Shown in pieces: positions 5,429 to 64,000 of a DNA stretch of 64,000 nt. The translations under genes and the position numbers were made by a program. How positions within the stretch are numbered: position 1 is the first letter of the stretch; the number at the start of each line of letters is the position of its first letter. The notes beneath the pieces were generated by a model. The model worked only from the letters and a program-made list of their open reading frames with translations. It was not told the DNA's origin and made no database searches. The DNA lies in the NCBI RefSeq assembly GCF_020497125.1, contig NC_059072.1:56950697-57014696 (forward strand), read 5' to 3'. This DNA is from Mauremys mutica (taxonomy: Eukaryota > Chordata > Testudines > Geoemydidae).

Positions 5429-5723
5429 GGGTACATCCATACTTACCGCCGGGTCGACGGGTAGCGTTAGACTTTTCGGAGTTCGAACTATCGCGTCTAA
5501 TCTAGACGCGATAGTTCGAACTCCGAATGCGCTCCCGTCGACTCCGGAACTCCACCACCGCGAATGGCGGTGGCGGAGTCGACGGGGGAGCCGTGGACTT
5601 CGATCCCGTGGTGTCTGGACAGGTAAGAAGTTCGAACTAAGGTAGTTCGACTTCAGCTACGCTATTCGCGTAGCTGAAGTCACGTACCTTAGTTCGACCC
5701 CCCACCCTAGTGTAGACCAGGCC
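5429..5723 (+). mobile_element. Three-hairpin MITE, PIF/Harbinger-like, copy 1
   Basis: The element is flanked by tta (5426-5428 and 5724-5726), a TWA-type target duplication. Ends are gggtacatccatactta and, on the other strand, ggcctggtctacactaggg, sharing a gg....tctacacta pattern. Inside are three strong hairpins: 5477-5525 with perfect 23-nt arms around atc; 5538-5582 with gtcgactccg and ccaccgc arms; and 5633-5695 with gacttcagctacgc arms. There is no coding capacity. It is very similar to 58941-59237 and related to 59347-59643. Confidence 0.82.
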
Positions 5724-5726
5724 TTA

Positions 5727-7204
5727 GTTCTTGGCCTACAGTCTGGTCTCTGATATGAAGTGCACAATTTTCCTCCTCTGGATTTGGTCCTGGACTCTGT
5801 AGAAACTTGTGGACACACTTAGATGTCCTAACCAATACTCTTAAGGTACAGAGATGACTTTCTTTGACCTATGGATAATTCTGCATCTCCTAAAGTACTG
5901 AGTTGTCAGCCCTTAGTTTATACTGAACAAGGTGTGAGAAGTATTTTTAACTTCTAGCCTATGCCTTCACTCTGAATATTCTTTTGCAGATTCATACTGG
6001 CTAGTCCATTTGCTGGACTTATTTCTGCCTCACATTCTCATTCAGTATATCCTGCTTCTGTTTCTCTCTCTATGCCCTCCTTGTAGGAGTCAGTCTCTTT
6101 CCAGAAACCTTCTTCCTCAGTCCCCTCTATACTGGCTCCTTTCTTTTTTTCATTTTTCCCACAAACATTGTTATTCAGAGCCCATAAGGGTCTTTTAACA
6201 AGACTTTTCTGGTTTTGTGGGAAAAGTGAAAATGGCCTTGTTTTAATCTAGGAACATTCTGGTCTGTGTACAGCTTGTATCTTTCTGAAAAATGAGATTG
6301 TCTGTCTTTATTAAAACTGCTTCATAAAACCCTGGGGCACACAAATTTCAGCCAATAATCATAAGATATAATCAGATTTAACTTTCATTTCACCAGTTCT
6401 ATTACATTCACCAGTATTATGCTTATGTGCCTATAACACCAATCTATCTTCAGTTAACCAGTAATTACAGCTGTTTGAAAAAAATCAAAATTCATTTTTT
6501 TATATGAACAGACACATTTTTGTGGTTATTTTCACCAAAACATTCATACCGTTTTTCAACCAGCTATAGAGCTGGCCAAAAATGTACAATGGAATTTGTT
6601 TTAACAAAACAAAGGACAAAGATTTTGCAAAAGTTATTTCCATTTTTCAACCAGCCCTACTAGTACTTGTTGTTTTCTTGAGATTGATGTGACAAGATGA
6701 GGCAGTGTAGCTAGGTATTGTAGCTTCACATGTAACCTACTGGTGAATATGTATTACAGGTCATTTGCTGTGCCAATCCACAGAGGTTATGAGTTACTAT
6801 AGTCCCTGTCTGTGAGGTGCTATAACCCCAGCTATATTAGTTGCCTTTTCAGATTAAACTGTACCAGCTCATGCTGTAAATTCTGGAGGTTCTTGGTTCA
6901 ATCCCTGCAGTGTTGGTGATGAGGGGTGGGTGTTGAGTTGGAGATCCCTTTAGGAAGACTCAATAGGGCTGTTGATTAGAATGGTTTAATGTATGTATTA
7001 CAGTATGTATTTCTGTTTGAATTATTATTTTAATGTGTCTAGGGTTTTGATGCAATGCTAATTGTATGTTATGGAACCTAGAACTTCTTATAGGTGTCTT
7101 TTATTATTATTTAAATCAAAATAAAAAATAAATATTAATATAAGCTATATTTTGTCATTTATAATTACACATTCATTTCCCTATTCAGTTTAATTCTGGT
7201 AGAT
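5727..7204. other. No gene recognised
   Basis: AT-rich unique sequence. A segment near 6530-6660 repeats tttttcaaccagc words and may be an old repeat fragment, but no ends can be defined. Confidence 0.5.
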
Positions 7205-18950: not shown

Positions 18951-20380
18951 GGCATATGAGTACATAAGCCTGATAAAGGGAAAAGTGCCATTAGGACAAA
19001 AGGAAACCCTCAGAGTCCCAAGGTGGAGAATGTTCTAGCTCCCTGATTTCCATGGGATTAGAAGGAAAACATCAAAATCTGCTGCTCCAATCTAATAGGA
19101 ATGGATCTGTAACAAAAATCTTTGTCCTTCCTTGCTCTGAAGGCGAATAGAGGGCATTTTTCATTGCTGTTAGTTATGAAGAGGTGTATTGATTGAACCC
19201 TCTTTCTGAGCAGTAAGTCCACTACTTACTGTGTCAGAGATCACTCATGCTGACCTTATAGTCTGTGATTTAATGTGTTCATTAATATGTTATCTGTCCT
19301 TTCAGGTAGAGAGCCACTGGATACACACAGTGTCCCAGACATTATTACTGCAGAGCCAGAGCCTTCAGACAAAATAGTTGGGAATGAGCACTCCTTACTT
19401 GTTGATATAAAATGTTGCTGTGGTGTTGTCTTTTAGAATGTAAGCTACTTGGTGCTTAATTGGAGGTAGAAAAGATTTCAGAGTCCATCAGATGCTTGTA
19501 ATTCTAGAGTGTTCCGATGGACCATGGCTTCTAATTATTCCATCCTCTGTTTACTGTTTAATTCCTGAGGTGTGCGCCTCACCCAGTTTGATGACCCGGT
19601 GATGACTACTACGAATGAAATACTGAAGGAAACTCCAGTTAGCTCATTGTTCGCTAGTTCAGGCATTTCCAAACATTTTCATAGGGTAGTTCACTTCCTA
19701 ATAAGAGAGATTGTCTCATAGTCCATTTTCCTTCCAATTTACACCTACTCCAATTCTTTGCTTGGAAAAAGGGCTGTTATGAAAGCATTAAATAGATTTT
19801 AATTATTTTAAAATGCAGTTTAGCAGCTGGAAACAAAGATGATGAGCCAGCACCACAGACTACCAGCAATTGCTCCAAGGGCTACAATGTGGGAATGTCT
19901 GCTTTAGTTTCTATCCAGGAAGGGATTTGAAGATTTTTGAAGGAATGGTCAAAAGTGTCCCCCGGTTTTCCTTGTTTAGAGTTTTATTTGCAGCTATCTG
20001 GTTTGTAACAGGCTGTCAGTGTTAGTCTGAAACACCTGTCAGCAGATGATTTTACTGTGAAAGGATTATGTGGGCCTGGTGACTCACTGAGGTAGGGATC
20101 TCATTACTGTACCTTTGAAGTGACTTTCTTGGGAGGGTGTGGTCAGAGCAGCCCTGGGGGAAGAACTGTAAGAGCAGTTAAACCTGATAGAAGGAGCAAG
20201 CTAAACTTATTGTTGCTTTCTTTGTTAATAAAGTCAAACATCAGAAGAAGAATGAATTTGTACTTTACAATGTAAGCTGAGCTTATAGCATAGATTTGGA
20301 AAGGTTCCTGTTTGCAGTTATTTGTTATGCTGTTTCTTTGAAAGCATCTTGTAGGATTCTCTCTGCCCCTGCCTTTGTCC
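18951..20380. other. No gene recognised
   Basis: Unique DNA. A tctgtcctttcag acceptor-like site at 19305 precedes an open stretch to 19435, judged insufficient to call an exon. At its end the CR1 insertion begins abruptly. Confidence 0.45.
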
Positions 20381-21240
20381 CCTCATGATGGGGGCTAATT
20401 TAGCTACAACGAGTCAGGAAAAAGATCTTGGAGTTATCGTGAAGATGTCCTCTTCTCTGAAGATGTCCACGCAGTGTGCAGAGGCGGTCAAAAAAGCAAA
20501 CAGGATGTTAGGAATCATTAAAAAGGGTATAGAGAATAAGACTGAGAATATATTATTGCCATTATATAAATCCATGGTACGCCCACATCTCGAATACTGT
20601 GTACAGATGTGGTCTCCTCACCTCAAAAAAGATATTCTAGCACTAGAAAAGGTTCAGAAAAGAGCAACTAAAATGATTAGGGGTTTAGAGAGGGTCCCAT
20701 ATGAGGAAAGATTAAAGAGGCTAGGACTCTTCAGTTTGGAAAAGAGAAGACTAAGGGGGGACATGATAGAGGTATATAAAATCGTGAGTGATGTTGAGAA
20801 AGTGGATAAGGAAAAGTTATTTACTTATTCCCATAATACAAGAACTAGGGGTCACCAAATGAAATTAATAGGCAGCAGATTTAAAACAAATAAAAGGAAG
20901 TTCTTCTTCACGCAGCGCACAGTCAACTTGTGGAACTCCTTACCTGAGGAGGTTGTGAAGGCTAGGACTATAACAATGTTTAAAAGGGGACTGGATAAAT
21001 TCATGGTGGCTAAGTCCATAAATGGCTATTAGCCAGGATGGGTAAGAATGGTGTCCCTAGCCTCTGTTCGTCAGAGGATGGAGATGGATGGCAGGAGAGA
21101 GATCACTTGATCATTGCCTGTTAGGTTCACTCCCTCAGGGGCACCTGGCATTGGCCACTGTCGGTAGACAGATACTGGGCTAGATGGACCTTTGGTCTGA
21201 CCCGGTACGGCCTTTCTTATGTTCTTATGTTCTTATGTTA
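20381..21240 (+). mobile_element. CR1 LINE, 5'-truncated 3' portion
   Basis: An open C-terminal reverse-transcriptase frame is followed by a roughly 200-bp 3' UTR containing gggctagatggacctttggt and three copies of an ttcttatg octamer at the extreme 3' end (about 21216-21240). This is the classical CR1 tail of birds and turtles, recognised during target-primed reverse transcription. The 5' end is an abrupt junction near 20381. No target duplication was found, which is usual for CR1. Confidence 0.93.
20385..21032 (+). pseudogene. CR1 ORF2 C-terminal reverse-transcriptase segment
   Basis: The open frame of 215 codons carries the CR1 thumb and C-terminal region: a KDLGVIV block near residue 14, [16 protein letters not shown] near residues 34-49, [20 protein letters not shown] near 60-80, and the end motif WNSLPEEVV followed by [10 protein letters not shown]. 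The natural stop follows a NGY ending. The palm with the catalytic Asp residues and the whole endonuclease lie upstream in a full element and are absent here, so this copy cannot mobilise itself. A small internal repeat of SSLKMS near the start suggests a local duplication. No frameshift is present, so the copy is relatively young. Confidence 0.92.
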
Positions 21241-22167: not shown

Positions 22168-23390
22168 AGTATCAGAGGGGTAGCCGTGTTAGTCTGGATC
22201 TGTAAAAGCAGCAAAGAATCCTGTGGCACCTTATAGACTAACAGACGTTTTGGAGCATGAGCTTTCGTGGGTGAATACCCACTTCGTCGGATGCAAGTAG
22301 TGGAAATTTCCAGGGGCAGGTATATATATGCAAGCAAGAAGCAAGCTAGAGATAACGAGGTTAGTTCAATCAGGGAGGATGAGGCCCTGTTCTAGCAGTT
22401 GAGGTGTGAAAACCAAGGGAGGAGAAACTGGTTCTGTAGTTGGCAAGCCATTCACAGTCTTTGTTTAATCCTGAGCTGATGGTGTCAAATTTGCAGATGA
22501 ACTGAAGCTCAGCAGTTTCTCTTTGAAGTCTGGTCATGAAGTTTTTTTGCTGCAGGATGGCCACCTTAAGATCTGCTATTGTGTGGCCAGGGAGGTTGAA
22601 GTGTTCTCCTACAGGTTTTTGTATATTGCCATTCCTAATATCTGATTTGTGTCCATTTATCCTTTTCCGTAGAGACTGTCCAGATTGGCCAATGTACATA
22701 GCAGAGGGGCATTGCTGGCATATGATGGCATATATTACATTGGTGGATGTGCAGGTGAATGAACCGGTGATGGTGTGGCTGATCTGGTTAGGTCCTATGA
22801 TGGTGTCGCTGGTGTAGATATGTGGGCACAGTTGGCATCGAGGTTTGTTGCATGGATTGGTTCCTGAGCTAGAGTTACTATGGTGTGGTGTGCAGTTACT
22901 GGTGAGAATATGCTTCAGGTTGGCAGGTTGTCTATGGGCGAGGACTGGCCTGCCACCCAAGGCCTGTGAAAGTGTGGGATCATTGTCCAGGATGGCTTGT
23001 AGATCCCTGATGATGCGTTGGAGGGGTTTTAGCTGGGGACTGTATGTGATGGCCAGTGGAGTCCTGTTGGTTTCTTTCTTGGGTTTGTCTTGCAGTAGGA
23101 GGCTTCTGGGTACACGTCTGGCTCTGTTGATCTCTTTCCTTATTTCCTCGTGCGGGTACTGTAGTTTTGAGAATGCTTGGTGGAGATTTTGTAGGTGTTG
23201 GTCTCTGTCTGAGGGGTTGGAGCAGATGCGGTTGTACCTCAGTGCTTGGCTGTAGACAATGGATCTTGTGGTGTGCCCGGGATGGAAGCTGTAGGCATGA
23301 AGGTAGGCATAGCGGTCGGTAGGTTTTCGGTATAGGGTGGTGTTAATGTGACCATCACTTATTTGCACCCTGGTGTCTAGGAAACACAGG
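22168..23390 (-). mobile_element. Penelope-like retroelement, 5'-truncated, 1.2 kb
   Basis: On the minus strand the insertion starts inside coding sequence next to the right target copy, runs through linker and GIY-YIG endonuclease coding, and ends with a 3' tail of about 200 bp finishing ggctacccctctgatact at the left target copy. The 14-bp duplications (22154-22167, 23391-23404) are exact. Coding is uninterrupted to its stop at 22370, so the copy is young. A 42-bp piece of the same 3' tail occurs at 47324-47365. Confidence 0.92.
22370..23390 (-). pseudogene. Penelope polyprotein C-terminal part with GIY-YIG endonuclease
   Basis: About 340 residues remain open from the truncation point to the stop. 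The first part (LDTRVQ, LYRKPTDRYAYLH, SFHPGHT) matches the end of the Penelope reverse transcriptase. A linker carrying a Cys cluster (CNKPRCQLC) follows. The GIY-YIG endonuclease domain shows VIYAIICQ and MYIGQSG at the two signature positions, an Arg-rich helix LRKRINGHK, and the conserved Glu in VGEHF. In this family the endonuclease nicks the target and the 3' end primes cDNA synthesis. The reverse-transcriptase fingers and palm are missing because of 5' truncation, so it cannot act alone. An open frame continues about 20 codons into host flank, which is not part of the protein. Confidence 0.92.
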
Positions 23391-23404
23391 AACATAGGAA
23401 CACA
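23391..23404. repeat. Target-site duplication of Penelope element (right)
   Basis: Exact 14-bp partner of 22154-22167. It follows a near-repeat gaaacacagg at 23381-23390, which is element sequence at the truncated 5' junction. Confidence 0.9.
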
Positions 23405-24660
23405 GTTATGCATAAAAAGCCATACATTTTTAAATTGAGTCAGTATAAGCAAACAATTTTAATACAGTATCACATTCCTAGTTCTTTCATAGTAATAGAT
23501 ACAAAATTAATTAAGTAAGTAATGGATATTTTTCAGGTGGCTTTTCCCATTTTATCTTGATTATACAAGATACATAGATAGAATGTTTGAAGAATGCAAG
23601 AATTGCACATCGTGGAACATCTATTCCACAGTATATGCAGCATTTTTCCAGATAGTCTGAGCTAATAGAGATGAATGTTTGCCAGGCAGTGCATTGGATT
23701 TTGAGATGTGAAGAGAGAAATAAATTCTTTAACTTGTGGAAAACAAAAAGGTTGAATTTTTGTTTTCTGCCAATGCTGGTGGAAGTTAAAACAACTCGTT
23801 GCTATTATATTGATCCTATCCAAACAAAATTATTTATATTGTGACAAAGCTGAGTACATGCACCATTTTCCACAATGACTGTCCTTGACCACCACCAGAA
23901 AATGAATTTGATTTCTCTAATGCAAAAGGTAATTGGATTTTTCTTTATTGAATGCATCCCTTTAATGACTGTCTTTGCTTCTGCCAATTTAGCTGCAAGT
24001 GACCTGACATTGATCTGATGATAAGACTTAAAATAAATGCTGGAGCTAAGAGATGAAAAAGACCAGCTGTCTGATATCAGAATGAACATTTCCTGCCTCT
24101 TCATGCCATTTTCCTCAGCAAATGTCACTTACTTGAATGCCATTCTTATAAAACACGCTGCTGTAATAACTGGTCACACAGCTGCAGATTGCTTCCTTCT
24201 AGCAAATATAATAAGTACTTCCCAGAAAGTACTCTGGAGAAAACATTTTGAAAATTGAATAAAACCCACCCGGTAATCATCTGTTTCCCTGCAAATATTT
24301 ATTACTGTATAGGATCTTCCTGGAACTGGAAAAGTATTGCTGAATGAAATTAATTAAGTCTTTAGAGGGGCCTTTTAAGCATTAAATACATATCCAAATA
24401 TTCATTTAGTTAACTTTGGTGGTTTTAACATGGGTGATCGGAGAAAGGAATTACCAAAGGAAATAGTATTTCAGGATACAATCAATTCTTCAAGCTAAGA
24501 ATAATAGAATCATTGGAGTACATATTTGTTTATATACCATATACGCTTAAAGTTTTCATCATCATTTAGGACCCAGTTCTGCAATGTGTTGAACACCTTC
24601 ACCCCCTGAGGTCTGAGAATCCTAAAGTTGGGAGATGAATTTGATTCATATGTGGCTTTG
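23405..24660. other. No gene recognised
   Basis: AT-rich unique DNA. Short frames at 23805-24128 (minus) and 24037-24258 (plus) overlap each other and carry no recognisable motif. Confidence 0.5.
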
Positions 24661-30447: not shown

Positions 30448-31284
30448 CTAAAGATCCAGCCGATGAGGAGGCCTTCTGTCTCTAGGTGGATTACGGCGAA
30501 CTTCTGGTGTTGTTGCACCCGAAAGTACTAGGGGCTCAGGGTCCGCAGCACGAATAGGTGAGGAGGTGGTATCAGCTCGTGCTGGGCAAAGGGGTATCTC
30601 AGCTGCCGGCAGTAATGGAGGAGAACAGTCAGGAACAGGTGACTCGTGATTCGGTGTCTCACCAGGAGGGGTGAAGTCAGACCCCTCAACTGCAGATGGG
30701 TCCTGAAGACTGGCATGACCTGGCAGCAGCTGATCTACATGTCGCCGCCAGGTAAGATTCTCTGCAGTCCGGACTGTATAGGAAACAGGTCCTGTTTGAG
30801 TGATGACTGTGGCCGGGACCCATTTAGCTCTGGAAGTATAATTCCGAGCCAAAACTGGCTGCCCTGGGCTAAAGGTTCGGTCTTTTGCTCTGGGTGCCCG
30901 TCTGATTACTTGATATTGCTGCTGATGTTGCACAGTTTGTCTGGGTTCAGAAGGTTTCAGCAGATCAAAGCAAGTGCGCAGCTGTCGTCCCATCATTAGA
31001 AAGGCTGGGGAAGCCTGGGTCGTAGCATGAGGTGTGTTTCTATAGGAAAGTAAGAAGGTATCCAGACGCTTTTGAATGGAGTGTTGTCCCTTTGCTGATT
31101 TCAAAGCGTTTTTCATTGTCTGCACAAATCTTTCAGCTAATCCGTTGGTGGACGGATGATATGGTGCTGACATGATGTGGTGTATCCCATTTGCCTTCAT
31201 AAAATTTTGAAACTCCTGAGAGACGAACTGCGGTCCGTTGTCGCTCACAAGTTGTTCTGGCAGACCAAAACGACTAAAGAGTCC
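30448..31284 (-). pseudogene. Gypsy integrase C-terminal segment
   Basis: This is the same reading frame as the pol segment upstream, separated from it by one TGA at 31285-31287. It carries the second catalytic Asp (SDNGPQF) and, 35 residues later, the catalytic Glu (NGLAERF), giving the DD35E spacing of integrases. The tail has a GPY/F-like module (WVPATVITQTGPVSYTV, then RRHVDQLLP) and a Pro-rich end; no chromodomain is seen. Integrase joins the cDNA ends to target DNA. The stop separates the first Asp from the other two residues, so an active integrase would need readthrough. The protein ends at a natural-looking stop about 130 bp before the LTR. Confidence 0.93.
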
Positions 31285-34089
31285 TCATAGTTTTTGGATA
31301 GTACTCTCTGCAGTAGTGGACTGCATTATAGAGACTTCTGGCCATTTAGAATGGGCATCTACTGCCACCAAGAACATGCTTCCTTCAAGGGGGCCAGCAA
31401 AGTCAACGTGAATACGTTGCCACGGGTTTTCAGGCCAGTCCCATGGGTGTAGGGGTGCCCACTGGGGTGCATTTCTTACACTCTGACATGACATACAAGC
31501 TTTTGCCTTCTCTTCAATAGCACTGTCCAATCTAAGCCACCAAAAATAGCTTCGTGCAATTTCCTTCATGCGCACTATTCCACAGTGACCGGAATGTAGC
31601 TGTTCTAACATCTGTGATCTCAGAGGTGGTGGAATAATGACACGCCTCCCCCACAACAAACAACCAGATTGGACCGATAACTCCGTCCGCCTGGACATGT
31701 AGGGAACAAGGTCGGGTGAGACCGGAGAGGTTTGTCGAGATTTTCCATGCATCACCAGGTCCATAACTTGGGATAATACTGGGTCAACGCGGGTTGCCTT
31801 CTTTATCTGAGTAGCAGTGATGGGTGTATTCTCTACCTGTTCAAAGTAGAAGATTTCCTTTTGGGCACTATCTTGATGTTTGACCGGTAAAGGCAACCTT
31901 GAGAGGCCATCTGCATTGCCGTGCAGAGTGGATTTCCGATATTTGATTTCATATGTGTGTGCAGAAAATATCAATGCCCAACGTTGCATACGACTAGCAA
32001 CTAATGGGGGAATGCCTGTGTAGGGTCCAAAAATTGATGTCAGAGGTCGATGGTCTGTAAGAAGAGTAAACTTTCGCCCAAACAGGTACTGATGAAACTT
32101 CCTAATTCCAAAAACAATTCCTAATGCCTCACGTTCGATTTGGGCGTAGTTAGTTTCTGCTTTGCTTAGAGTGCGTGAAGCAAAAGCAATAGGTCTTTCT
32201 TCTCCCGAAGGCATAATGTGTGACACGTCCGCTCCCACTCCATAAGGGGAAGCATCGCAGGCCAATTGCAGGGGTAAGGATGGATCAAAGTGCGTTAGAA
32301 CTTCAGAATTTAACAATGCATCCTTAGCTTTGTTAAATGCAACATCACAGGCTTCAGTCCACTTCCAGGCCTTGTTCTGCCCAAGGAGCTCATGAAGTGG
32401 TTTTAGCAGTGTGGCTAACTGTGAGATGAACTTTCCATAATAGTTCAGTAGTCCTAGAAATGAGCGTAGCTGGCTTACATTTCGAGGTGGGGGAGCCTCC
32501 ACAATAGCTTTAACTTTTGCAGGGGCCTTATGAAGACCTGCAGAATCGATGATGTGTCCCAAATATTCAACAGAGGGCTTGAAGAATTCACACTTGTCTT
32601 TGCGAACTCGTAGGCCATACTCTTCCAGTCTTTGTAGGGTAGCCTCTAAATTCTTTAAGTGATCCTCTTCATTTCTTCCAGTGACCAGGATATCATCCAG
32701 ATAGCACTGAACTCCTGACAAGCCACACAAGATCTGGTCCATAGCCCTCTGGAACAGGGCGGGAGCCGATGTGATTCCAAAGGGTAGGCGACAGTATCGA
32801 TAAAGGCCCTTATGAGTCACAATAGTCAACAGCTCTTGGGACTTTTCATCGACGTGCATCTGTAAATATGCTTGACTCAGATCAATCTTACTGAACTTTT
32901 GTCCCCCAGCCAGGCCTGCGAAGAGGTCATCGATGCGGGGAAGCGGGTATTGCTCTGCACACAACACTGGGTTGACAGTGACTTTAAAATCACCGCAAAT
33001 CCGGAGAGAGCCATCTTTCTTCACGATTGGAACGATAGGAGTGGCCCATGAGCTATGGGTAACTGGTATTAGGACTCCATTGGTGACCAGGCGCTCCAGG
33101 TCTGCTTCAACTTTTGGCCTGATGGCATATGGCACAGTTCGGGCTTTCAGATATTTTGGTGGACTGCCAGGTTTAATGTTCAATGTCACAGTGATTCCCT
33201 TCATACTTCCCAAATCATCTCCAAAAACAGCAGCATGTTTCCTTAGTATAGGGGTTAGACTGGTTTCTTCTTTAGTCATCCGGTGCACTTCTGCCCAGTT
33301 CAGCTGAATCTTCCCAAGCCAAGACCTACCCATTAAGGCTGGGTAGTCACCTCTCACCACAAACAGTGGCAATTTAGCCGCCCGTCCATTGAGCTCCACC
33401 TTAACATCAATAGTGCCCAACATGGGCACAGCTTCACCTGTATACGTCTTCAGAACAGTTTTTGTTGCCTTAAGCGGAAGATGCTGTAGCTTTTCCTTAT
33501 ACACAGTCTCAGGAACCAGCGAGACAGCTGCACCGGTGTCTAGTTCCATGCGTATAGGTTTGCCCTCCAATAAGGGGGTTACCCAGTATTCATGTGAGCC
33601 CGCTGCCAAAGACAAAACATGCAGTGGCACTTCCTCTTGTGAGGAGGTGTCACCTTGATCATCCTGGGTCTGCTCTAGGGTATGCAAGGTTCCTCTTTTT
33701 GTCGGCCAGACCACAGGCCTCTTTTTCTTTTGTTTACAGGCATACTCAATGTGTCCCTTTTTGCCACAGTGTCGACACACCAGGTCCTTACACCAGCATT
33801 CTGATGCCTGGTGACCCAGCTTACCACAGCGGTAACATTCTTGACTCTGCACCGTTTTGTGGGTCAGTTCTTGTGACACTTTTTGCACCCTAGGGGATGC
33901 ACCGATGTATTGTGCCTCCCTTGTAGCCAGTTCCATGGAGACATCAATATCAACAGCCTTCTGTAATGTAAGCTGAGCCTCTGTCAGTAGGCGCTTCCGT
34001 ATAGCTTCACTGCAGAGGCCACACACTAACCTGTCACGCAGGGCATCATTTAACATCTCTTTAAATTCACAGTGTTCTGCTAGCTTTTT
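31285..34089 (-). pseudogene. Gypsy gag 3' part and pol (protease, RT, RNase H, integrase N-part)
   Basis: A long open frame (923 codons from its first Met) holds, in order: the end of gag; two CCHC zinc knuckles (residues 74-87 and 94-107); an aspartic protease with DTGA at 173-176; reverse transcriptase with FSKIDLSQAYLQM near 388 and the YLDD box at 452-455; RNase H beginning LACDASPYG near 598; the zinc-binding HHCC region of integrase (H821, H824, C854, C857); and the first integrase Asp at 885. All visible catalytic residues are kept. It ends at an in-frame TGA (31285-31287), and a TAA (34090-34092) cuts it from the gag start. With only two stops and near-identical LTRs, decay is very recent, or one stop may be a translational control; the latter is speculation. 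Confidence 0.95.
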
Positions 34090-34422
34090 TTAAATGGCTA
34101 CAAATTGTACAACTGTTTCATCTTCCTTTTGGTCTCTTTTGTGGAACCTATATCTTTCAACAATTACCAGTGGTTTTGGGGAGAAATGAGACCCCAGGAT
34201 TTCCACAATGTCACTGTAAGATTTAGTCTCAGGCTTAACAGGGTGTAGTAAGCTGCGTAGCAGAGAGTAGGTTTTAGCCCCTACAACAGTTAAGAATATT
34301 GGCACCTTCTTCGCTTCTGTAATGTCATTTGCAATACCAAAAAGCTCAAAACGCTCAGTATACACATGCCACTGCTCTGTATTCTCATCAAAAGGCTCCA
34401 GGGGCCTGGTCAGAGTAGCCAT
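34090..34422 (-). pseudogene. Gypsy gag N-terminal segment
   Basis: The likely start is the Met at 34422 (MATLTRPLEPFDE), not the upstream Met at 34458, because MATL...PF is typical at the start of Mag-like gag. The product matches the retrotransposon gag capsid: a WHVYTERFELF block, then IFLTVVGAKTYSLLRSL, then VEILGSHFSPKP and a helix with RYRFHKRDQ. It forms the particle that packages element RNA. A TAA at 34090-34092, inside an A-rich run, interrupts the frame; the same frame continues beyond it into the knuckles and pol. About 120 bp separate this start from the primer-binding site. Confidence 0.9.
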
Positions 34423-34527
34423 GATTTTTAGTTTCACTTTCACAGTCAGTGCAAACAAGCAGCTTTTTTTCTTTGTTTGGTCTTTACCTTGACTTCTACT
34501 TCCTTCTGTTACTGGAGCAGCACCAGG

Positions 34528-34545
34528 ATCCCACCCTCGTCGCCA
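34528..34545 (-). promoter_or_regulatory. Gypsy primer-binding site (tRNA-Ser-like)
   Basis: On the minus strand, tggcgacgagggtgggat follows the 5' LTR after one base. It is complementary to the 3' end of vertebrate tRNA-Ser(GCU) as I remember it (...atcccatcctcgtcgcca), with one mismatch over 18 nt. tRNA-Ser priming is known for Mag-like elements. Confidence 0.8.
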
Positions 34546-34546
34546 G

Positions 34547-34737
34547 TGTTATGTCCTAGGGGCAGCCGGTGTAGTAAGGAATCACTTGAGGCCAGAGAGC
34601 AGACAGCTAACCAAAACCTCCATTTTATTTACAGAAACAGAGAGCTCACTCAGCCGGTTGAAACCGGCTGAGCTATCCCTTAATAGTCTAACTCAGTTGC
34701 CATAGTAACAAAACCCATGACAACCAAATACACAACA
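34547..34737 (-). repeat. Gypsy 5' LTR (191 bp)
   Basis: Partner of 30126-30316, with two substitutions in 191 bp and the same TG...CA ends. It would carry the promoter of the element; no canonical TATA box is obvious to me. Confidence 0.97.
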
Positions 34738-35235: not shown

Positions 35236-35443
35236 TTCCAAATCAGTTGTTTTCAATCAGTAGAAGGTACCACAACTCATCTAGATATTTGTCTAGTTTT
35301 ACAACAGGCTACATAAAAAGCACTAGCGAAGTCAGTAGAACCCAAAATTTCATACAGACAATGACTTGTTTATACTGCTCTATATACTATGCACTGAAAT
35401 GTAATTACAATATTTATATTCCAATCGACTGATTTTATAACTA

Positions 35444-37117
35444 CAGTTGAACCCTGTTATGTTGCCAGCCTAGGGGTTTGCCAAAAATAGTCCAGATAAC
35501 CGATGATCGAGATAAACCCCTATCCACCCCCCCACCCCTGAACTCCCCTGCCCTCTCTCCAACACCCCCTCCCTGCCCCCTTACCGCGGTGCCTGCACGT
35601 GGCTGGATCCGGCGAAGCGGGACGGGGAAGCGGGGCCGGGCGGCCGTGGATGGGGACCCGGAGCCGGGCATCCAAAGAAGCGGGACCCGGTAAGCGGGCC
35701 GGGCGGCAGGCGAAGCGGGACCGGGTAAGCGGGGCCAGGCGGCGGGCGAAGCGGGGACCGGGGGAGCGGGGCGGGGGGGCGGGCGGCGGGCGCCGCGGGG
35801 ACCGGGGCCGCGGGGCGGGGGGGGCAGGCGGCGACGCGGGGCCGGGGGGCCGGGCGGGCGGCGAAGCGGGGACCGGCGAAGCGGAGCCGGGCGGGCGGCA
35901 GGCGAAGCGGGGACCAGGTATGCGGGGCCGGGCGGGCGGGCGGGGCCGGGCAGGGACCGGGTATGCGGGTGCGGGGCCGGGCGGGCGGCGAAGCGGAGCC
36001 GGGCGGATGGGCGGGGCGGTGAAGCGGGACCGGCGAAGCGGAGCCGGGCGGGCGGGCGGCAGGCGAAGTGGGGACCAGGTATGCGGGGCCGGGCGGGCGG
36101 GCGGGGACGGGCAGGGACCGGGTATGCGGGGCCGGGCGCGGGGACGGGCAGGGACCGGGTATGCGGGGCCGGGCGGGCGGGCGGGCGGCGAAGCGGGGCC
36201 GGGCGGACGGGCGGGCGGCGAAGCAGTGACCGGCGAAGCAGAGCCGGCGGGCGGGGCGGCGGGCGGCAGGCGAAGCGGGGACCAGGTATGCGGGGCCGGG
36301 CGGGCGGGCGGGGACGGGCAGGGACCGGGTATGCGGGGACGGGCGGGCGGCGAAGCGGAGCCGGGCGGACGGGCGGGCGGCGAAGCGGGGACCGGCGAAG
36401 CGGAGCCGGGCGGGCGGGCGGCAGGCGAAGCGGGGACCAGGTATGCGGGGCCGGGCGGGCGGGCGGGGACGGGCAGGGACCGGGTATGCGGGGCCGGGGG
36501 GGCGGGGATGGGCAGGGACCGGGTATGCGGGGCCGGGCGGGCGGGCGGCGAAGCGGGGCCGGGCGGACGGGCGGGCGGCGAAGCGGGGACCGGCGAAGCG
36601 GAGCCGGGCGGGGGGGCGGCAGGCGAAGCGGGGACCAGGTATGCGGGGCCGGGCGGGCAGGCGGGGACGGGCAGGGACCGGGTATGCGGGGCCGGGCGGG
36701 CGGCGAAGCGGAGCCGGGCGGACGGGCGGGCGGCGAAGCGGGGACCGGCGAAGCGGAGCCGGGCGGGCGGGCGGCAGGCGAAGCGGGGACCAGGTCTGCG
36801 GGGACGGGCAGGGACCGGGTATGCGGGGCCGGGCGGCTGGGGACACGGTGGGTCGGGGACGCGGGGAGCTGGGCGGCTGGGGACGCAGGGAGCGGGCGGC
36901 TGGGGAACCGTGCGGCTGGAGAGCCGGGGAGCGGGCGGCTGGGGACACGGTGGGTCGGGGACGCGGGGAGCCGGGCTCGAGATATTAGGGTTCGGGGAAT
37001 CGACATAAGGGATGAGAAACCCATAAGACAAAGAGGGAGTTTGGCGGTTCCACTTGTAAAACGTCGACTTAATAGGGTTGGCAAGTTAACCGAGGTCGAG
37101 ATAAATGGGTTCGACTG
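35444..37117 (+). mobile_element. pogo/Tigger-like MITE filled by a minisatellite (1.67 kb)
   Basis: The left end cagttgaacccTgttat and the right end read in complement, cagtcgaacccatttatc, are inverted repeats, and both are flanked by TA (35442-35443, 37118-37119), the target of Tc1/mariner-pogo elements. Sub-terminal gataaccgatgatcgagataa and taaccgaggtcgagataaat also correspond. Between about 35600 and 36990 almost everything is a G-rich tandem repeat. Long frames on both strands here (up to 602 codons, Pro/Arg- or Gly/Arg-rich) arise from the repeats and lack any domain; I do not count them as genes. Confidence 0.8.
35620..36850 (+). repeat. G-rich minisatellite with higher-order structure
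   Basis: Short gcggggccgggcgggcgg-type words are organised into larger units. The landmark ggcaggcgaagcggggacca begins at 35897, 36058 (one change), 36265, 36420, 36618 and 36773 (one change downstream): spacings 161, 207, 155, 198, 155. The alternation of about 157 and about 202 bp implies a higher-order unit near 355 bp. Runs of three or more G are very dense on the plus strand, so G-quadruplex formation and replication or assembly trouble are likely. Confidence 0.93.
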
Positions 37118-37270
37118 TATATAGTAAAAATGAGAAAGTAAGCAAATTTTCAGTAAAAGTGTTCTGTAACACTTTTTTGTGTTTTTTATGTCTGACTTTG
37201 TAAGCAAGTAGTTTTTATGTGAGGTGTAACTTAGGGGTACACAAGACAAATCAGGCTCCTGAAAGGGGTA

Positions 37271-37428
37271 CAGACACTCCCCAACTCAAATTTTGCATAA
37301 GTCGGAAACATACACGACCATTTCCCCCTTCCCCCCCCAAAAGAACCCTCCTATTTCTTGCTTACGGAATCTTTTCTGTAAGCTAGAAATTTGCGTAAAT
37401 CGGGTTTGCGTAACCCAGGGGGTGTCTG
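37271..37428 (+). mobile_element. Small pogo/Tigger-like MITE (158 bp)
   Basis: Ends cagacactccccaactc and, in complement, cagacaccccctgggtta are inverted repeats flanked by TA (37269-37270, 37429-37430). Internal ttgcgtaaatcgggtttgcg pairs loosely with gcataagtcgga. It inserted into the right part of the old hAT at 35244-37459. Confidence 0.82.
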
Positions 37429-58940: not shown

Positions 58941-59237
58941 GGACAGGTCTATACTTACCTGCCGGGTCGACGCGTAGCGATCGACTTCTCGGAGTTCGAA
59001 CTATCGCGTCTAATCTAGACGCGATAGTTTGAACTCTGAACGCGCTCCCGTCGACTCTGGAACTCCACCACCGCGAACGGCGGTGGCGGAGTCGACGGGG
59101 GAGCCGCGGACTTCGATCCCGCGGCGTCTGGACGGGTGAGTACTTCGAACTAAGGTAATTCGACTTCAGCTACGCTATTCGCGTAGCTGAAGTCGCGTAC
59201 CTTAGTTCGACCCCCCCACCCTAGTGTAGACCAGGCC
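58941..59237 (+). mobile_element. Three-hairpin MITE, copy 2
   Basis: Very similar to 5429-5723 throughout, including the 23-nt hairpin cggagttcgaactatcgcg (one arm mismatch here: a t for c near 59030) and the gacttcagctacgc hairpin. It is flanked by taa on the left and tta on the right, so the target duplication is degraded or in palindromic form. No coding capacity. Confidence 0.82.
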
Positions 59238-59346
59238 TTAGTGCTTCAGAGTATTTAATGGATTTATCATCACACCACCATGATGAGGTAGGGAAGTGCT
59301 AATTCTCCCATTTTACAGATGGGGAACTGAAGTACAGAGAGACTAA

Positions 59347-62126: not shown

Positions 62127-62515
62127 TAAAGCCTGGTCTACACTAGGCATTTAAATCGGTTTTAGGAGCGTAAAACCGATTTAACGCCATAACCGTCCAC
62201 AATGGAGGCACCTTATATCGATTTTAATGGCTCTTTAAATCAGTTTCTGTACTCCTCCCCGACGAGAGGAGTAGCGCTAATATCGGGATTAACATATCGG
62301 AATAGGGTTAGTGTGGCCGCAAATCGATGGTATTGGCCTCCGGGCGGTATCCCACAGTGCACCAGTGACCACTCTGGACAGCATTCTGAACTCGGATGCA
62401 CTGGCCAGGTAGACAGGAAAAGCCCCGCGAACTTTTGAAATTCATTTCCTGCTTCCCCAGCGTGGAGAGCTCATCAGCACAGGTGACCACGCACAGCTCA
62501 TCAGCACAGGTAACA

Positions 62516-63068
62516 ATGCAGTCTCCTGAGAATCGAAAAAGAGCCCCAGCATGGACTGCACGGGAGGTACTGGATCTGATCGCTATATGGGGAGAGGATT
62601 CAGTGCTAACAGAACTGCGTTCCAAAAGACGAAATGAAAAAGTATTTGAAAGAATTTCTAAGGCTATGACGGATAAAGGCCACAGCAGGGACTCAGTGCA
62701 GTGCAGAGTGAAAGTTAAGGAGCTCAGACAAGCCTACCAGAAAACCAAAGAAGCAAACGGAAGGTCCGGGGCAGGTCGAAAAACATGCCGCTTCTATGCT
62801 GAGCTGCATGCAATTTTAGGGGGCTGCGCCACAAGTACCCCACCCCTGATCGTGGATTCCGAGGTGAGGGTTGTAATCTCTGCCATGGCTGAGGATTATG
62901 CAGACGGGGAAGATGAAGATGAAGAAGAGGAGGAAGACCTAGCAGAGAGCACACAGCACTCCGTGAGCCCCAGCAGCCAGGAGCTTTTTATCACCCTGAC
63001 GGAATTACCCTCCTCCCAGCCCTCACAAGCAACTATCCCAGACAATGACGCCATGGAAGGGAGCTCTG
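62516..63068 (+). CDS. Myb/SANT-like DNA-binding protein, exon 1 (partial gene)
   Basis: Start chosen at the ATG at 62516 (aacaATGc), because the upstream in-frame ATG at 62396 adds 40 residues without conserved features. Residues about 10-105 form a trihelix Myb/SANT-like domain of the Myb_DNA-bind_4 type: Trp at 13 (APAWTAREV), Trp at 25 (IAIWGED), then RRNEKVFERISKAM, VQCRVKVKELRQAYQK and a CRFYAELHAILG end. A linker follows, with an acidic run (DEDEEEEEDL) near 130-142 and a Ser/Thr/Pro-rich tail. In PIF/Harbinger elements such proteins carry the transposase to the termini; this copy could act so or be a domesticated relative (inference). The exon ends at a gtgagt donor, giving 184 codons plus 1 nt. 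No stop or frameshift is seen. Introns are typical of these elements. Confidence 0.82.
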
Positions 63069-63957
63069 GTGAGTGTACCTTTGGAAATAGCAAACAAACA
63101 TTGTTTTTTAAGCAAGCCTTTTTTAATGATTGATTTGCCCTGAGGACTTGGGATGCATTCGCAGACAGTATAGTTACTTAGAAAAGTTTGTTAACATGTC
63201 CGGGGATTGGGGACATCTCGATGAAGCGCTCCTGTAGGTACTCCAGAAGCCTTTGCAGAAGGTTTCTGGGCAAGGCAGCCTTGTTCCACCCACCATGGTA
63301 GGACACTTTACCACGCCATGCATGTAGCAAGTAATCAGGTATCATTGCATGGCAAAGCATAGCAGCGTATGGTCCCGGTGACTGCTGGCATTCAAGAAGC
63401 ATCCGCTCTTTATCTTGTTGTGTTATCCTCAGCAAAGTGATATCGTTCAGGATAACCTGGTTAAAAATCAGGAAATTAAGTAAGGGGGGTGGCCATTTTT
63501 CTACTGGGTTCATGGACTGCATCAGCTTAAAAAAAACCTTTCCTGCACGTAGCGAAGCGGGGGGAGGGGAGGAGTGAAATGCCGATGATCTTTTTTGTGT
63601 TTGGTCACCGGCGATCTTCCCCAAGCTACCAGCCACGCAGTGGGTGGGGGGGTGGGAAGGTTGTTGATTAGCAGGGAGCTAGCGTGGTATTAGCCATGCG
63701 TTGGCGGGGAGGGGTAAATCACTACAGAAACCGAAAGACAGTGGCTTACCATGGCCGCATGCAAGCTGAATTCTGATGCCCGGACCTGTGTCTGTGAGAT
63801 CTGTAACTCCAGAGCTGCAAGCACTCACTATTAAGATGAAAAATGCGACCTTGTAGGGAAATCACATGTGCTAGGTGAATAGTGCTGTTCACTGTGAAAG
63901 AGTATAACCATTGTTCTGTAAAATGTATCTTTCTAAATATTTATCTCCCTCATGCAG
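63069..63957 (+). other. Intron of the Myb/SANT-like gene (889 bp)
   Basis: It begins gtgagtgtac at 63069 and ends ctccctcatgcag at 63957, canonical donor and acceptor. Joining the exons keeps phase: the single base left by exon 1 is completed by two bases of exon 2. The alternative, reading on into the intron, ends at a stop at 63131-63133 with an unconvincing Phe/Lys-rich tail. It contains an open frame on the opposite strand (63178-63678). Confidence 0.7.
63178..63636 (-). CDS. Antisense open frame with BEN-like C-terminus, inside the intron
   Basis: The frame is open from 63678 to the stop at 63178-63180. It starts formally at a GTG (63636), not an ATG, so it is probably the 3' part of a longer or spliced product, or a fragment. 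Composition is protein-like rather than repetitive. The second half reads NDITLLRITQQDKERMLLEC, then AAMLCHAMIPDYLLHAWRGK, then WNKAALPRNLLQRLLEYLQE and RFIEM. The order (L..A..P..L..., then K.AL....L..L..Y...RF) resembles the BEN domain, a DNA-binding fold present in some transposons; this is my own pattern reading and needs a profile search. It could supply a second element function or be an unrelated antisense frame. It is opposite in strand to the Myb/SANT gene and lies wholly in its intron. Confidence 0.45.
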   Translation of the reverse strand: MAGSLGKIAGDQTQKRSSAFHSSPPPASLRAGKVFFKLMQSMNPVEKWPPPLLNFLIFNQVILNDITLLRITQQDKERMLLECQQSPGPYAAMLCHAMIPDYLLHAWRGKVSYHGGWNKAALPRNLLQRLLEYLQERFIEMSPIPGHVNKLF

Positions 63958-64000
63958 CTGCAAATTTTTCAACCATCCCTCCTCCATCCCAAAGGCTAGC
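63958..64000 (+). CDS. Myb/SANT-like gene, exon 2 start (runs off window)
   Basis: Joined to exon 1 in phase, the 43 bases continue as AANFSTIPPPSQRLA, a Ser/Pro-rich linker with no stop. The rest of the gene lies beyond the window. The assignment depends on the splice model. Confidence 0.6.

Follow-up and report, generated by a model that had tools for sequence, protein, structure and literature searches.

A Harbinger-type transposon of turtles with a probable third gene, antisense and most likely BEN-like, in its Myb/SANT intron

A Harbinger-type transposon at the end of the window

The window analysed here, a stretch of 64,000 nucleotides of the turtle Mauremys mutica (contig NC_059072.1, positions 56,950,697 to 57,014,696; host genome 2.48 Gb), is occupied from position 62130 to its end by the left part of a 4,229-bp DNA transposon of the Harbinger type. 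An antisense reading frame within the intron of its Myb/SANT gene, which we propose to be part of a third gene, is the subject of this report. An earlier note made from the sequence alone had proposed a DNA transposon here, and this is borne out by 20 whole copies with their duplications and ends; the alignment of sister copies puts the right end at ~66358 in window coordinates, i.e., outside the window. These 20 copies of the window's family (fam1; L009–L028, including the window's own) were picked by Myb exon 1, not by the nested gene, and were drawn from 40 scored places among 4,411 first-look candidates. Their lengths are 4,211–4,269 bp and their pairwise identities 97.3–99.1% (n=20), and the genome holds many copies at 98-99% identity. 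The transposon and its Myb/SANT gene lie in the window as follows:

62127..62129, strandless: left target-site duplication, TAA; the one that follows the right end, outside the window, is the same
62130..64000, plus strand: left 1,871 bp of the transposon, from alignment with 19 sister copies
62130..62145, plus strand: left terminus AGCCTGGTCTACACTA, to be compared with ...TAGTGTAGACGTACCC at the right terminus; the inverted core GTCTACACTA is common to both
62516..63068, plus strand: Myb/SANT exon 1, coding part, 553 nt (PF13837, E 7.5e-20)
63069..63957, plus strand: Myb intron, 889 nt, GTGAGT...CAG, from the donor and phase-matched acceptor in the sequence
63958..64000, plus strand: first 43 nt of Myb exon 2, from the phase-matched junction; the exon runs on to ~64484 outside the window

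The terminal bases are AGCC at the left and, read inwards, GGGT at the right, the exact limit being ambiguous by a base. The 3-bp duplication is identical at both ends in 14 of the 20 copies, eight of these 14 being TNA, and a C precedes the left duplication in 19/20 copies while a G follows the right one in 13/20, so that the flanks agree with the C|TNA|G target site of PHIS/NuwaII. As described in the consulted part of PMC4482050, the NuwaII group of PHIS (PIF/Harbinger-ISL2EU-Spy) has two open reading frames (ORFs), a DDE transposase and a Myb/SANT protein, and the target C|TNA|G, and has been recorded from one turtle; the present element resembles it in its transposase and Myb/SANT protein, in its target and in its turtle host, and is of comparable length (near 4.7 kb there). 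Most PHIS terminal inverted repeats begin with GG in that same part of the source; the left end here, as delimited, starts with AG. Because of its C|TNA|G target, Harbinger-type transposase and Myb/SANT protein, the element fits a Harbinger-type (PHIS, NuwaII-like) DNA transposon of turtles, as judged from these sequence features. Just inside the left end, at 62151-62184, two perfectly inverted 14-nt repeats flank a 6-nt spacer (TTAAATCGGTTTTA/TAAAACCGATTTAA), and one of the transposon's proteins may bind there. Besides this subterminal palindrome, the window holds only two short matches to the left end, at 59220-59243 and 5706-5728 (~96% over 23-24 nt), perhaps the ends of related short elements.

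The reading of an intact Myb/SANT exon ending in gtgagt, with a phase-matched acceptor 889 bp further on, holds for the sequence: the product of exon 1 matches the Pfam profile PF13837, the donor begins at 63069, and the predicted spliced frame stays open past the window to ...RRLSLL*. This spliced frame is 352-359 aa long in 14 of the 20 copies and shorter in four; in the other two (L020, L025) the junction was not matched by our search patterns. The transposase gene lies on the minus strand beyond the window, and was recognized by a DDE_Tnp_4 match in sister copy L012 (E 7.3e-36). Its frame is open over 423-430 aa in 12/20 copies and broken in the window's own copy, and there are sister copies in which the Myb, transposase and nested frames are all open. 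As the transposase sits past the window end, the element would comprise three genes rather than the compact two-protein system first envisaged. The Myb protein of Harbinger elements presumably assists the transposase in getting to the element ends.

The proposed nested antisense gene

Inside the Myb intron a minus-strand frame of 166 codons extends over 63178-63678. For comparison we used a diverged subfamily (fam2, 31 copies) fetched by similarity to P0002, a predicted turtle protein containing the nested-gene sequence. When six fam1 copies were set against 11 fam2 copies, the Myb intron was seen to hold two conserved islands, 63178-63456 and ~63750-63930, separated by diverged, gapped sequence. 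Only the last 92 codons of the 166-codon frame (63181-63456) and its stop fall within a conserved island, while the first 74 codons fall in this gapped part, which we read as a putative intron of the nested gene itself. The antisense unit resembles a gene with two exons, the first of which closes with the start codon, and the earlier proposal of a minus-strand coding unit stands in this altered form, not as a single 166-codon frame. Its predicted parts are:

63750..63930, minus strand: putative exon A, a conserved block with an approximate 5' limit
63752-63750, minus strand: putative start codon, the last codon of exon A, followed by the donor GTAAGC; ATG|GT is kept in fam1 20/20 and fam2 25/31
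63457..63749, minus strand: putative intron, 293 nt, poorly conserved in the island comparison
63178..63456, minus strand: putative exon B, coding part including the stop, from frame and conservation; 92 codons in this copy and 97 in most of its sisters
63122..63127, minus strand: ATTAAA, a poly(A)-signal-like hexamer kept across families

On the minus strand exon A would end GCGGCCATG|GTAAGC and exon B begin after TTTTTAACCAG|GTTATC, giving the joined product M-VILNDITLL. The predicted protein has 98 aa, or 93 aa in the window's copy owing to a 15-nt deletion close to where the frame ends. The fam2 exceptions at the end of exon A are L036 and L051, without ATG, L037, without GT, and L049, L056 and L057, in which exon A was not found. 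The acceptor AG of exon B is kept in 19/20 fam1 copies (not in L026) and in 31/31 of fam2, the nested intron measures 284-296 nt in fam1 and 261-452 nt in fam2 where measured, and an ATTAAA or AATAAA hexamer lies ≤140 nt from the coding end in 19/20 and 30/31 copies, respectively. The whole nested frame (93-98 aa) is kept in 18 of the 20 fam1 copies, L022 having an early stop and L026 having lost the acceptor. In an old copy, L061, whose protein is 66% identical, ATG|GTGAGTAAG occurs 404 nt upstream of the acceptor, and Myb exon 1 lies on the opposite strand. The same arrangement recurs in the fam2 loci: Myb exon 1 lies opposite exon B in 30/30, with exon 2 also present in 29 and exon B between the two.

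L056 has an N-terminal part of a transposase directly before exon B (650-1147, 1507-1791) and no Myb exon 2; it looks like a deletion derivative and could give rise to fusion gene models such as P0001. In the single degenerate copy made up of L060 and the tail of L021 (Myb 53%, transposase 64%) there are ~120 bp between the Myb exons and exon B is absent, so that the nested gene may have been added to the basic element plan, or else was lost in this copy.

Proteins related to the antisense frame come, where they are named, from turtles. Two exon B queries gave 16,838 and 16,291 first-look candidates, of which 150 each were scored, and these figures are not copy counts. We also considered exon B as continuous with an upstream frame (copy L059), but this was dropped since the N-terminal part of P0002 was absent from the loci searched and the preceding stretch is not conserved. 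A genome-wide search for retrocopies of the spliced exon A-exon B junction at ≤3 mismatches found none, a result that by itself says nothing about splicing.

Purifying selection on exon B between subfamilies

Majority codons were derived from the 20 fam1 and 31 fam2 copies. Between them the ratio of nonsynonymous to synonymous rates (dN/dS) is 0.20 for exon B (97 codons); the two Myb exons give 0.32 and 0.43, and the transposase (337 codons covered) gives 0.36. Of the differences in exon B, 16/29 are synonymous, against an expectation of 8.1 (P 0.0012). Of the six frames across the 97 codons, only the antisense one is free of stops in both subfamily majorities, the five others having 5-10 stops each in the two majority sequences together. 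When the same test of synonymous excess was applied to those five frames, rc1 gave P 0.03 and the remainder P 0.41-0.98. Codon by codon, this comparison shows that the putative nested protein was kept by purifying selection between the subfamilies.

Two points weigh on the other side. In the 20 young fam1 copies exon B has five shared variants and no signal of selection. Furthermore, fam2 was retrieved by similarity to the nested protein, and dN within that family is therefore biased downwards.

Comparison of the nested protein with BEN domains

The earlier note had guessed at a BEN domain, and this finds support at the level of the predicted fold but not in Pfam: no row for PF10523 was obtained at E≤10 with the window protein, P0001-P0003, P0005, P0006, P0008-P0011 or L029. 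The nine best VIA rows for the predicted fold are all BEN domains with middling Z-scores; these chains belong to four proteins, and the first row unrelated to BEN scores lower. (A first AlphaFold job with four sequences, with a predicted local distance difference test (pLDDT) of 45, was left out of the fold search.) The profile-profile match to BEN by hhalign was weak, its score lying above those of 600/600 shuffles by a narrow margin. Pfam scans of the exon B relatives returned only unrelated names below their cut-offs, the best being DUF6206 (E 0.0075), and searches of PDB sequences with exon B gave best E-values of 0.27 and 0.17 to unrelated names, which we took as chance. A genome-wide PF10523 scan yielded nine matches from 27 candidates, at nine places that were not compared with the element copies.

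Could the nested gene be real and its domain nonetheless be another small helical fold, like BEN in arrangement only? We consider this unlikely, though by no means negligible, as BEN chains fill the top nine rows above any unrelated one, the sequence-only profile comparison likewise points to BEN, and BEN had been proposed before the fold test was made. A BEN-like helical fold is most likely for the nested protein as modelled. The prediction resembles the BEN-domain proteins BEND3, BANP, NACC1 and BEND6, as covered by the consulted part of PMC11472053, in its all-helical fold and in that its best matches among solved structures are BEN; it differs from BEN-domain proteins in having no Pfam BEN match, in being free-standing at 98 aa and transposon-encoded, and in its short C-terminal helix. 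According to that same part of the source, BEN domains bind DNA with the C-terminal helix (PMC11472053), and by analogy the nested protein, if BEN-like, may do so too, though the helix is short here.

Predicted gene models that join exon B

Eight predicted turtle proteins (P0001, P0002, P0003, P0007, P0012, P0013, P0014 and P0016) have differing N-terminal parts that run into exon B either at the V codon or a codon earlier, and these models suggest that the exon B acceptor works. P0006 and P0015 were excluded from this list, since in them the residues ahead of exon B could be no more than read-through of the intron before it. Two of the eight, P0013 and P0014, are predicted isoforms of host genes, RAB3C of Chrysemys and CDK6 of Malaclemys, respectively.

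Such models raise the question of whether exon B serves the same-strand transposase gene as an alternative last exon and is not, or not only, part of a separate gene; splicing from the 5' untranslated region would then give the small protein, and splicing from a coding donor a transposase N-terminus without the catalytic core but with the domain, i.e., a built-in repressor. P0001, P0007, P0012 and P0016 have transposase-like N-terminal parts and meet exon B at the V codon or one before; P0003, by eye, seems to carry transposase leader sequence, its N-terminal part resembling what precedes the start of the transposase in P0016; and the junction of P0012 is at CAG|GTGTGG, which is also found in the L012 transposase. 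However, all of these models are predicted, annotation programs often bridge broken frames, the donors vary among the models and that of P0001 (AAT|GTGCAG in L012) is poor, whereas the split start codon and donor of exon A are kept in three families, one of them old. On balance we regard this explanation as decidedly unlikely. The Drosophila P element makes a repressor by splicing, a retained intron truncating the protein; if the transposase-exon B models are real, splicing here would likewise make a transposase fragment without its catalytic core, although, unlike in the P element, it would do so with an exon that has its own domain and is nested in another gene.

That exon B is instead conserved non-coding DNA or RNA of the Myb intron, such as a splicing or promoter element that is open by chance, is very improbable: the second conserved block does adjoin the Myb acceptor, and the young family and the rc1 frame leave room for the idea, but the synonymous changes in the one stop-free frame largely refute it, and relatives at ~50% protein identity still hold the frame and motif.

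Other features of the window

Elsewhere in the window, by eye, adjoining long frames on the minus strand (30448-34548) look like gag-pol of a Ty3/gypsy-type retroelement, a 362-codon minus-strand frame (22370-23458) like the terminal portion of a Penelope-like element, GIY-YIG part included, and a 225-codon plus-strand frame (20355-21032) like the end of a CR1-type long interspersed nuclear element (LINE) reverse transcriptase. Long proline/arginine-rich open frames on both strands at 35441-37285 probably reflect a GC-rich repeat array.

Discussion

We consider it probable that this turtle transposon has three genes, the transposase and Myb/SANT pair and a complete antisense gene in the Myb intron, which is most likely BEN-like; splicing, expression and function of the nested gene we infer from sequence. 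The minus-strand transposase and the two-exon, plus-strand Myb/SANT protein would be the usual Harbinger pair. The nested gene would consist of exon A, closing in the start codon (GCGGCCATG|), and exon B, coding the remainder of the 98 aa and followed by its own ATTAAA. The likeliest function of its product, at somewhat less than even odds, is a regulatory or helper role: as a small accessory protein that binds DNA or a partner, it would regulate transposition or transcription of the element. Because the nested gene opposes the Myb gene, fits within its intron and carries a 3' signal of its own, the element might make the Myb protein and the nested protein in alternation.

In the literature that we searched (on Harbinger, on turtles, on nested or antisense genes, and on BEN together with transposons, the sources being covered in part and subscription literature and Repbase lying outside the search) no such third gene appeared. 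The two ORFs given for NuwaII in the consulted part of PMC4482050 set that group apart from the turtle element with its third gene antisense in the Myb intron, and the same part of the source states the role of the additional ORF in Harbinger-type transposons to be unknown. A gene of this kind is easily overlooked because it is antisense within an intron and has its start codon at the end of an exon.

We see about an even chance that a third, complete BEN-like gene lies antisense in the Myb intron, has been selected through several subfamilies and is present at maybe thousands of places in turtle genomes, which would make it a new Harbinger component and a possible Myb/BEN-like switch. A selected third gene would change the parts list of Harbinger-type transposons, which are described with two ORFs, and, if true, a BEN-like domain would be carried by a DNA transposon. 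It raises the question of whether the small protein helps, represses or targets transposition, in a family young enough to have fully open copies; and exon B is already present in predicted isoforms of the host genes CDK6 and RAB3C.
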